Positions 58,447 through 61,773 of a stretch of DNA of 64,000 nucleotides are shown one piece after another. The stretch comes from Erysipelotrichaceae bacterium NK3D112 (GTDB lineage: Bacteria; Bacillota_I; Bacilli_A; Erysipelotrichales; Erysipelotrichaceae): NCBI GenBank assembly GCA_000701725.1, contig JNJQ01000001.1, positions 62,001-126,000 on the forward strand, in the 5' to 3' direction. A model generated the notes under the pieces. That model did no database searches, was not told the origin of the DNA, and worked only from the letters and a program-made list of their open reading frames with translations. Numbering within the stretch: position 1 is the first letter of the stretch; the number at the start of each line of letters is the position of its first letter. A program made the translations under genes and the position numbers.

Positions 58447-59496
58447 ATGGCCCGCTGCAAAGGATGCGGTGCGCTTCTGCAGAGCACCGACAAAAACGCT
58501 GCCGGCTACACGCCCAAAGAGGGCAGTGAATACTGCCAGAGATGTTTCCGCTTAAGCCACTATGGCGATCTGATGATTTCCATGAAAACCGGTATCGATC
58601 CCCATATGGTTCTGAATCGTGTCGAAGCGATGGATGCGGTGATTCTCTGGGTGGTTGATCTGTTTGACTTTGAGGCAGGCATGATCGACGGCATCTCCAG
58701 AAGACTCGCCAACAAACCCATCATCATGGCCGCCACCAAGCGCGATCTTCTTCCGGAAACTCTTTCCGGTGACAAAGCAGCAAGATTTGTCTTTACAAGA
58801 CTCAAAGATCTCGGCATTCATATCGATACCCTGATTCTTACCAGCCGCAAGGACAGAGAGGCAAATGCGGAAATCCAAAGAGCGGTCAAAGAAACAGCGC
58901 AGGGCAAACCGTGCGCCGTGATCGGCAAGGCGAATTCGGGCAAGAGCACACTGCTCAACTGCCTGGCGGAAAATGATCAGCTGACCATCTCCCGCTATCC
59001 CGGCACAACCCTTGATTTCAATGAGGTGAAGATCGGCGATCAGGTTTACATCGATACGCCGGGCATCGAGATTGAACATTCGATGCTGATGGAAACCGAT
59101 GAGAAGGATCTCAGCGTGTTTGTTCCGCAAAGACGCATCAAGCCTGCCGTTTATCAGCTCAAAGGCAACCAGACCTTCTCGCTTGGCGGACTGGCAAGAA
59201 TTGACCTGTTCGGCTGTGAGAAGGCAAGCTGTGTCTTCTATCTCGCCGACAGTCTCAATGTTCACCGCTCTAAAACGGAGAATGCGGATGAGCTCTGGCA
59301 GAAGCACTATGATGAAATGCTGAAGCCCGTTCCGTTAAAAAACGAATTCTCCGTCTCACAGAAACACAAGGATTCAGAAAAAATGGATATCGTGATTGAC
59401 GGCCTTGGCTGGGCATGTGTATCGGGTAAGATCACCTCGGTCAAAGTCCATGTGCCCAAGGGTGTCAATGTCACATACAGAAAGGCAATGCTGTAA
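58447..59496 (+). CDS. yqeH: Ribosome biogenesis GTPase YqeH
   Basis: A 349-residue circularly permuted GTPase needed for 30S subunit assembly. The N-terminal zinc ribbon has CKGCGALLQ and later YCQRCFRLSHY (near residues 4 and 30). The permuted GTPase domain has AATKRDLL (G4) before the P-loop GKANSGKSTLLN near residue 159 and the switch YPGTTLDF near residue 183. The rest is the C-terminal substrate domain. It is translated directly after parC with two bases between, an unusual fusion of topoisomerase and ribosome clusters. Confidence 0.94.
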   Translation: MARCKGCGALLQSTDKNAAGYTPKEGSEYCQRCFRLSHYGDLMISMKTGIDPHMVLNRVEAMDAVILWVVDLFDFEAGMIDGISRRLANKPIIMAATKRDLLPETLSGDKAARFVFTRLKDLGIHIDTLILTSRKDREANAEIQRAVKETAQGKPCAVIGKANSGKSTLLNCLAENDQLTISRYPGTTLDFNEVKIGDQVYIDTPGIEIEHSMLMETDEKDLSVFVPQRRIKPAVYQLKGNQTFSLGGLARIDLFGCEKASCVFYLADSLNVHRSKTENADELWQKHYDEMLKPVPLKNEFSVSQKHKDSEKMDIVIDGLGWACVSGKITSVKVHVPKGVNVTYRKAML

Positions 59497-59783
59497 TGTT
59501 AACTACCAAACAGAAAGTATTTCTCAGAAGTCTTGCTCAGACCGAGAAGCCCGTCTTCCAGATCGGCCAGAACGCGTTAAGCGACAATCTGATCAAAACC
59601 GTTTCGGATTATCTGAAGAAACATGAACTGGTCAAGATCAGCGTTCTCAAAAACTGCGACGCGGACCTGAAGGAGCTCGGCTTTGATCTTGCCATGATGA
59701 CAAAGAGCGAATGTGTTCAGATCATCGGCAGACAGCTGGTCCTCTACAAGCGTGCCAAAGAACCGAAGATCATCCTGCCATGA
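59496..59783 (+). CDS. yhbY: RNA-binding CRM-domain protein YhbY
   Basis: A 95-residue CRM/YhbY RNA-binding protein associated with pre-50S ribosomes. The start QKVFLRSLAQTEKPVFQIGQNALSDNLIKTV and the GxxG-like turn FQIGQN near residue 24 are typical. Its ATG overlaps the yqeH stop by one base, and its stop overlaps the next start. Confidence 0.92.
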   Translation: MLTTKQKVFLRSLAQTEKPVFQIGQNALSDNLIKTVSDYLKKHELVKISVLKNCDADLKELGFDLAMMTKSECVQIIGRQLVLYKRAKEPKIILP

Positions 59784-60580
59784 AGATCATCCTGACATCA
59801 CCGTTTGATCCGGTCAGTGAGCGTGAGATGGAATACATCCGTCAATACCGCAAAACACATGGTCTCAGGGATATCTGGCTCAGTGTGGATGAGGAAGGAA
59901 TCCTTGATCATGACACAAGAGTCGCTCTGCTGAAAAAAGCCGCCGCGTATGACCGCCGCCTGCACATTTGCGAAACATCCGAAACAGGAGAGGCCATCGA
60001 ACCGCTTGATGAGGATACCATTCGCAAAGGACTGTACCGTCTGGCGGCCAAAGGAATCCGAAAGGATCTGATCACAGAAGGGTATTATCTGGATGAGACC
60101 GCCAAAGCCATGTGCAACCCGCACCGCTATGCCCATTCAAAAAGCGTTGCGCAAACGGCCGTGAAACTGGCCCATGCCCATCATATGGATGAGAAAAAGG
60201 CATATGTGATGGGAATGCTGCATGATATCACCAAAGCATTTTCCGATGAGCAGAACGAGCAGATCATCCGTCTGTATAAACCGGAATGGCTGAGCCTTTC
60301 ACCCAAAGTCTGGCACAGCTATACAGCCGTGATCTTTGCAAAGCAGAATATGTCATTGACGGAAGGTGATATCGCCTATGCGATGGAGCACCATACAATC
60401 GGCGACGGAAATACCGATTACGCGGCTTTGCTGTACATCGCCGACAAGATTGAGCCCTTACGCGGGTATGATGTTTCTAAACAGACCGCATCGGCAATGA
60501 AAAATCTGAAAAAAGCAGCTTTTGAAATCAGAGAGGAATCAAAAGCGTATATACTGAAAACGGAGGGAATTCATGTCTGA
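59780..60580 (+). CDS. yqeK: YqeK-type HD hydrolase fused to a NadD-like remnant
   Basis: A 266-residue protein. Residues about 105-266 form the HD domain of YqeK, which in other Firmicutes splits Ap4A symmetrically: HRYAHSKSVAQTA near 115, MLHDITK at 147-152 and MEHHTIGD near 202. The first 100 residues look like a nucleotidyltransferase fold of NadD type (ILTSPFDPVSEREM... near residue 4), but the HxGH motif that binds nucleotide is gone, so this half is probably dead. In Bacillus NadD and YqeK are separate neighbouring genes; here the usual nadD gene is missing from the cluster. ATG overlaps the yhbY stop by four bases. Confidence 0.87.
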   Translation: MKIILTSPFDPVSEREMEYIRQYRKTHGLRDIWLSVDEEGILDHDTRVALLKKAAAYDRRLHICETSETGEAIEPLDEDTIRKGLYRLAAKGIRKDLITEGYYLDETAKAMCNPHRYAHSKSVAQTAVKLAHAHHMDEKKAYVMGMLHDITKAFSDEQNEQIIRLYKPEWLSLSPKVWHSYTAVIFAKQNMSLTEGDIAYAMEHHTIGDGNTDYAALLYIADKIEPLRGYDVSKQTASAMKNLKKAAFEIREESKAYILKTEGIHV

Positions 60581-60926
60581 ACTTCTGGATATTGTATTGA
60601 AAACACTCGATGAGAAACTCGGCGAGGACATCGTCGCCATTGATATGAGCTCAGCCAGCGCGTTCACCGACTGGTTTGTGATCGTCACTGCCAGAAATGT
60701 GCGCCATGCCCAGTCACTGGCTGAATTTGTTGAGCAGGAAGCTGCCAAAAACGGCTATGACGTACGCGTCAGAGAAGGCGAAAAGGACAGCACATGGGTG
60801 CTGGTTGATCTGCACGATGTGATCGTCCATATCTTCACCGATGAAACAAGAAAAACATATCGTCTGGAGTCCCTTTGGGCGGACCAGCCGATGTACCGGT
60901 ATGAACCGGATGAGGCAGCACAATAA
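60573..60926 (+). CDS. rsfS: Ribosomal silencing factor RsfS
   Basis: A 117-residue protein that binds ribosomal protein L14 and blocks subunit joining when nutrients are short. The core KLGEDIVAIDMSSASAFTDWFVIVTARNVRHAQSLAEFVE near residue 14 and the DSTWVLVDLHDVIVHIF block near residue 72 are characteristic. It overlaps the YqeK gene by eight bases. The terminator at its stop codon marks the end of the main cluster. Confidence 0.94.
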   Translation: MSELLDIVLKTLDEKLGEDIVAIDMSSASAFTDWFVIVTARNVRHAQSLAEFVEQEAAKNGYDVRVREGEKDSTWVLVDLHDVIVHIFTDETRKTYRLESLWADQPMYRYEPDEAAQ

Positions 60927-60960: not shown

Positions 60961-61773
60961 ATGATTGCGGAAATCATCAGCGTCGGCACGGAACTGCTGC
61001 TTGGCAACATCGTCAACACCAACGCCCAGTACATTTCAAAGCACCTGGCCGATCTTGGTATTGAAGTTCATTTTCAGACAACCGTGGGCGACAATCCAAA
61101 GCGTATCCGCTCTGTGCTTGACATCGCTTACAGCCGGGCGGATCTCTGCATTCTGACAGGTGGTCTCGGTCCGACAAAGGATGACATCACCAGAGAGATG
61201 ATCATCTCCTATTTCAATAAAAAACCCGTCATGGATGAGGAAAGCGTGGCAAACATGCGCGAAAGACTGAACGTGATCACGGATGAAACACTCCGCGAAA
61301 GTCTGCTCAAATGCGCAACCGTACCCGATGAATCGATCATCATGCACAATCACAACGGTCTTTCTCCCGGCTCCATCATGGAGGATCAGGGACGCATCTG
61401 CATTCTTCTGCCCGGGGTACCGAAGGAAATGAAGCCGATGTTTGAGGAATATGTCATTCCTTATCTGCGAAAGCTTTCCGATCAGGTGCTTGTTTCAGTG
61501 GATATCAAACTGCTTGATTTCAAACACGCCTCCGTGGAGGAGGTCGGAGAAGCACCGGTCGCAGCAAAACTCGGCACATTGCTTGATGGAACAAATCCCA
61601 CCGTGGCAACCTATATCAAGGATGACGGCAACCTTATCCGGATCACCGCAAAGGCTTCAGACGAAGAGACTGCTCTGGAGATGATCCGGCCTGTAATTGA
61701 CGCATGTAAAAAAGCAGTCGGGGAACAATTCATTCAATCCGTTTCCAGGGAGGAAAAAGCATGGAATATGTGA
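60961..61773 (+). CDS. cinA: CinA-like protein, N-terminal domain only
   Basis: A 270-residue protein with the competence/damage CinA N-terminal MoaB-type domain (IISVGTELLLGNIVNTNAQYI near residue 4, ILTGGLGPTKDDITRE near residue 63, LPGVPKEMKPMF near residue 148) and the short middle domain. Full CinA proteins of about 410 residues also have a C-terminal nicotinamide-nucleotide amidase domain, which is absent here; the end of the gene overlaps the next gene by 13 bases. So it is a short form. The domain is likely an ADP-ribose or nucleotide pyrophosphatase. GGGGAC precedes the ATG. Confidence 0.88.
   Translation: MIAEIISVGTELLLGNIVNTNAQYISKHLADLGIEVHFQTTVGDNPKRIRSVLDIAYSRADLCILTGGLGPTKDDITREMIISYFNKKPVMDEESVANMRERLNVITDETLRESLLKCATVPDESIIMHNHNGLSPGSIMEDQGRICILLPGVPKEMKPMFEEYVIPYLRKLSDQVLVSVDIKLLDFKHASVEEVGEAPVAAKLGTLLDGTNPTVATYIKDDGNLIRITAKASDEETALEMIRPVIDACKKAVGEQFIQSVSREEKAWNM

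Follow-up and report, generated by a model that had tools for sequence, protein, structure and literature searches.

YqeK (COG1713) is a symmetrical Ap4A hydrolase of the HD type, recognized by the model TIGR00488, and its solved structures (2o08, 2ogi, 3ccg, 8jja and 8wmy) are bare chains of 188–216 aa. Residues H29, H58, D59, K62, H91, H117 and D135 have been assigned roles from the structure of the Streptococcus pyogenes protein (PMC11857287). In most mycoplasmas, YqeK is fused to the nicotinate-nucleotide adenylyltransferase NadD (TIGR00482), and has been proposed to repair the mistakes made by NadD (PMC9426524). The NadD domain of the fusion is unspecific for the nucleotide, and the proposed role of YqeK is to remove the wrong products (mBio 2022, PMC9426524); the fusion itself is used to argue for a proofreading or clean-up function of YqeK acting after NadD (PMC9426524).

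Here, we analyzed a yqeK gene in a 64,000-nucleotide stretch of DNA from Erysipelotrichaceae bacterium NK3D112 (hereafter the window, meaning the whole stretch). Its product shares with the described YqeK proteins the HD domain, with the full set of metal ligands and active-site residues reported for it, but it also carries an N-terminal stub of about 100 residues that the solved chains lack.

The yqeK gene and its N-terminal extension

The gene lies in the order yqeH–yhbY–yqeK–rsfS, and the coordinates given for it in the initial annotation were right. The features are as follows:

58447–59496, + strand: yqeH, ribosome biogenesis GTPase, conserved neighbour (TIGR03597, 308 bits)
59496–59783, + strand: yhbY, ribosome assembly RNA-binding protein, overlapping the start of yqeK (TIGR00253, 87 bits)
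59780–60580, + strand: yqeK with a stub derived from NadD, 266 aa
59780–59989, + strand: stub part 1, residues 1–70, corresponding to the β1-αA-β2-αB-β3 segment of NadD (HMM, profile, alignment)
59990–60016, + strand: junction, residues 71–79, where about 75–80 central NadD residues are missing (alignment with fused homologues)
60017–60103, + strand: stub part 2, residues 80–108, corresponding to the C-terminal segment of NadD, TIRKG...GYYLDETA, running into the HD domain (HMM, NadD 156–184; PRK07152)
60104–60559, + strand: YqeK HD hydrolase domain, residues 109–260 (TIGR00488)
60573–60926, + strand: rsfS, ribosome silencing factor, overlapping the end of yqeK (TIGR00090, 107 bits)

The ATG start codon at 59780 overlaps the stop codon of yhbY as ATGA, and the same start is used by L156, a YqeK protein of an uncultured Erysipelotrichaceae bacterium that is 89% identical to that of the window. 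Twelve bases at the end of yhbY (AAGATCATCCTG, 59767–59778) are repeated right after the yqeK start codon (59783–59794); the duplication is probably due to chance, since the two copies differ from each other in L156. Directly downstream of rsfS is a CinA-like ORF (60962–61773) that ends after about 270 residues and is shorter than full CinA.

TIGR00488 matched residues 109–260 with 98.8 bits, above its curated cut-off of 70.15. The seven S. pyogenes residues correspond, in the order given above, to H119, H148, D149, K152, H179, H205 and D222 of the window protein, all of which are invariant in 89/89 homologues. This supports an intact HD active site, and the protein is predicted to be an Ap4A hydrolase. 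PADLOC gave only a weak HD-domain likeness to Cas3 and was uninformative.

The initial annotation had described the extension as a dead remnant of NadD. Taken alone, residues 1–102 had no above-cut-off match in Pfam or NCBIfam, and a PF01467 search of the genome listed five places, with the stub not among them. These negative results would suit an extension unrelated to NadD, in which the sequence SPFDP was a chance resemblance. However, an HMM built from the fused NadDs of the same family gave the window stub a score of 19.8 bits, spread over two stretches in collinear order (NadD positions 6–77 and 156–184), while the maximum reached by 1,850 shuffled stubs was 7.9 bits. A profile of seven stubs from the same genus matched fused NadD with an hhalign probability of 98.6% (E 8.6e-16), compared to 0.2% for the reversed-profile control, and the match for the first 70 residues had an E value of 2.1e-12. 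Intermediate stubs also exist, the best N-termini reaching 59 bits with the fused-NadD HMM (in genome G053), and the extension has the same position and the same C-terminal continuation as fused NadD. Chance likeness was thus ruled out by the HMM with its shuffled control and by the profile comparison, and we regard an unrelated origin as extremely improbable.

In the alignment with fused NadDs, the stub keeps β1, the F-D-P turn, αA, β2, αB and β3 (strand and helix names were inferred from the NadD family, for which the closest solved structures are 2h29 and 1kam). After the deletion, it resumes at IRxG...LY, ahead of the HD domain. The fusion model PRK07152 (NF005519) matched residues 88–259 at model positions 168–342, and therefore from inside its NadD part, although the score of 108.2 bits was below the curated cut-off of 315.

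When compared to 52 fused NadDs, the window stub keeps F9, D10, P11, G84 and Y103. The GG, both histidines of HxGH, and two residues of the TPLK loop (P and K) are invariant in the fused domains and changed in the window, where the GGxFDPx(H/T)xGH motif reads TSPFDPVSERE, with FDP alone kept and SxxE in place of HxGH. The serines of SSTxIR (the second invariant in all 52, the first being S in 51/52) are both changed as well, the motif reading DEDTIR, and the 75–80 deleted residues contain SYTxxT, IGxD and a conserved W. Across stubs, the F and the P are each kept in 34/37 and the G and the Y each in 29/37; the second histidine of HxGH is kept in 12/37, and is E or D in the genus of the window. 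The residues that are kept look structural and those that are lost look catalytic. Judged by sequence comparison, residues 1–108 are descended from NadD and form a catalytically dead remnant; this reading of the initial annotation is backed by the HMM, the profile match and the motif losses.

Structure prediction for the window protein, alone and together with L156, gave models with a mean pLDDT of 39 and 47, respectively, too low to use. Of the five-stranded Rossmann sheet of a complete nucleotidyltransferase fold, these low-confidence models show only a strand-helix-(strand)-helix-strand order in residues 1–66. A Foldseek search with the second model returned YqeK structures as the best matches, none of them below E 0.001.

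The ancestral fusion, its erosion and the separate NadD

Among 145 sampled genomes of the family, the majority have a single ORF of about 340–390 aa that joins NadD and YqeK. In the sister family f2, the main YqeK ORF is 352–414 aa in all genomes listed, and the 20 that were fetched carry a clear NadD match; most genera of the window's own family, f1, are fused, and the fusion was found in other families of the class as well. In the genus of the window, all genomes listed have YqeK ORFs of 268–318 aa, with no fusion among them. We conclude from this distribution that the ancestral state in the order was a single NadD–YqeK fusion protein of about 340–390 aa. The window yqeK and its fused homologues occupy the same yqeH-yhbY-X-rsfS location: YhbY adjoins 52/52 fused and 37/38 stub genes, YqeH adjoins 35/38 stubs, and bare YqeKs have the same neighbourhood. 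The remnant does hold the place of nadD between yhbY and yqeK, as had been proposed. However, it was taken for the fossil of a separate nadD of the Bacillus type, and is instead what erosion left of the NadD half of a fusion found throughout the sister family and in most genera of this one. With a fused ancestor, the Bacillus arrangement is not the relevant comparison.

Two other kinds of YqeK ORF were seen. Genome G358, from another family of the class whose other members are fused, has a 323-aa YqeK ORF (L207, minus strand) in which about 125 N-terminal residues (MKKIYFLTTFKNN...) do not match NadD; the genome has no TIGR00482 match at all, and L207 is possibly an independent erosion. At loci L141 (G047), L209–L213 and L215–L220, YqeK is N-terminal in ORFs of 299–416 aa with a C-terminal extension of at least 100 residues.

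Multiple origins of the stub are supported by the tree of YqeK domains, in which the stub label needs 11 changes, three of them forced by strongly supported branches alone; this tree and that of NadD below are single-gene trees of the quick kind on short alignments (166 and 199 columns), with SH-aLRT support alone. A single clade of all stubs was rejected by the AU test (p-AU 3e-65), as was one restricted to the 24 clearest stubs (p-AU 0.0013), ruling out a single origin of all stubs, and fused and stub members occur side by side in genus g24. Erosion thus seems to have happened more than once in the family. Stub proteins are of similar length across genera, 252–287 aa with one of 309. Not all YqeKs require the stub, since bare forms are present in four of the family's genera (g3, g37, g45 and g47). 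The stubs of g5 and g56 have weak NadD similarity and those of g19 none that could be detected, so their NadD origin rests on position and length.

The initial annotation had raised the question of a functional nadD elsewhere in the genome, and a likely one was found: a complete, stand-alone nadD with all of the motifs (GGAFNPPTIAH, RTYTT, GSD and SSSKVR), situated in a pncA–pncB–nadD–nadE operon at about C1:249,300–254,000, some 130 kb from yqeK. Rfam gave no match on this operon. In the NadD tree, all 57 fused domains group in a single clade (SH-aLRT 99), to which none of the 58 stand-alone NadDs belongs. Since the fused clade excludes every stand-alone NadD, the separate NadD was not derived from the fused copy, and fission of the fused gene as its source was ruled out; the tree supports displacement of the fused copy by the separate NadD. 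In seven of the genera examined (g1, g18, g20, g27, g33, g37 and g48), pncB adjoins nadD and nadE, and in other genera, for example g24, g5, g16 and g19, the separate nadD is not beside nadE. In genome G053, the stand-alone nadD lies within an open frame of about 859 codons directly after pncB (L246, 3799–6375), perhaps another NadD fusion.

A separate NadD was found in 0/47 fused and 39/47 stub or bare rows (Fisher p 1.5e-18, a test that ignores relatedness); a tree-aware test of co-occurrence had only two independent pairs among the strongly supported branches, which is not enough for significance. Across all 145 genomes, and among the hits listed, the fused ones had no second NadD match above a background of short, weak matches, which we take to be CoaD. 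There were eight non-fused genomes without NadD. Seven of these (G019, G056, G073, G089, G100, G131 and G047), all of them small and with a YqeK that is either bare or of the stub kind, have no matches to PncB or NadE either, and in the eighth, G004, pncB/nadE is cut by a contig end. Part of these absences could be missing sequence, as genome completeness was 80–98%. The stub is kept in six of the seven small genomes, and all seven may have to import NAD or a late precursor.

Selection on the stub and its possible role

Comparison of the window with L156 gave a dN/dS of 0.14 for residues 1–76, 0.09 for the next 30 residues and 0.08 for the HD domain; counts of synonymous and nonsynonymous sites in the stub gave a Fisher p of 8e-9. 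Stub values for other pairs were 0.25 in g48 (Fisher p 8e-5) and 0.04 in g20 (Fisher p 5e-9). These ratios support purifying selection on the stub, with a constraint that is weaker than that on the HD domain in most pairs. Because it is still protected by selection, the stub probably has a non-catalytic job.

We also considered that the stub might be functionless and heading for loss, with stop codons and frameshifts barred only by the domain downstream. Bare YqeKs exist in the family, and most pairs show quicker evolution of the stub than of the HD domain (0.25 versus 0.07 in g48), both of which agree with such plain decay. However, several pairs have dN/dS values for the stub that lie far below 1 (0.14, 0.25 and 0.04) and stub proteins of different genera are alike in length, which makes pure decay quite unlikely. 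A second possibility, suggested by the initial annotation, is a sensing or regulatory pseudoenzyme, with hydrolase activity adjusted through binding of a nucleotide or NAD precursor to the stub. Purifying selection, the retention of the F-D-P turn and the second histidine of HxGH in those 12 stubs would fit this idea, but that histidine is E or D in the genus of the window and, with the half of NadD that contains SYTxxT, IGxD and the W deleted and the SS of SSTxIR gone, the usual NadD-type site for ATP or NaMN cannot form. Moreover, six genomes keep the stub but show no pncB, nadD or nadE, which indicates that the stub need not be linked to NAD synthesis. Nucleotide sensing is therefore not supported in the form in which it was put forward, and we consider it unlikely. 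Selection on the stub could also be explained if it were a docking module, holding YqeK to a partner such as YqeH, YhbY, RsfS or a NAD enzyme, as the constancy of the neighbourhood in stub genomes would suggest. Yet fused and bare YqeKs have the same neighbourhood, and the stand-alone NadDs are of several kinds, which disfavours one fixed NadD partner; docking is conceivable, but doubtful.

The account that we favour, as a somewhat better than even prospect, is that the displaced NadD half of the fusion was eroded repeatedly to a selected stub that serves as a non-catalytic scaffold for the hydrolase. The ancestor would have been a bifunctional fusion of nicotinate-nucleotide adenylyltransferase and HD hydrolase. 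NAD synthesis would then have been taken over by a separate NadD, placed within the pncA–pncB–nadD–nadE salvage operon in the genus of the window, after which the fused NadD half could lose its catalytic residues and the central 75–80 residues with the HD hydrolase unharmed, a course presumably repeated within the family. The resulting stub, some 100 residues that comprise half a Rossmann fold and the C-terminal segment, would pack on the HD domain, which evolved fused to it, and aid the folding or assembly of that domain. We infer this order of events and the scaffold role. A structural role seems likeliest because the half of NadD that completes the site is missing, the turn and core residues are kept, and the stub persists in the six genomes that seem to lack the NAD operon. 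The bare YqeKs of four genera count against a scaffold, and the low-confidence models do not support its packing on the HD domain.

Comparison with known systems

A broader reading is tentative, and we hold it to be plausible rather than probable. In this reading, the stub is a new non-catalytic domain made repeatedly by gutting NadD in NadD–YqeK fusions: whenever a separate nadD takes over NAD synthesis, or this synthesis is lost, about 100 residues of dead NadD would be retained by selection because YqeK had come to depend on them for assembly or control. If so, the family would amount to a repeated experiment of nature on the reasons for which dead halves persist in fused enzymes. The series of fused, eroded and bare forms in the family also shows stepwise how one half of a fused enzyme becomes a dead, selected remnant. 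The proofreading idea can be tested naturally in lineages that have an intact YqeK but a NadD that is gutted, displaced or lost along with the NAD operon. There, YqeK persists although its chain has no NadD partner, and so it must do something more than proofread within the chain.

A literature search, with most subscription papers outside its scope, found no description of repeated gutting of the NadD half after displacement. The NadD–YqeK fusion of mycoplasmas is already known (PMC9426524). Compared to NadD itself (1kam, 2h29), the window stub derives from the β1–β3 half plus the C-terminal segment, lacks the catalytic motifs and about 75–80 central residues, and has no match to a NadD model on its own. 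Compared to the fusion (NF005519/PRK07152; JCVISYN3A_0380 of the minimal Mycoplasma), the window protein has the same domain order and the same C-terminal half; however, the known fusion has an active NadD, while the window protein has a gutted NadD half and its genome encodes NadD separately.
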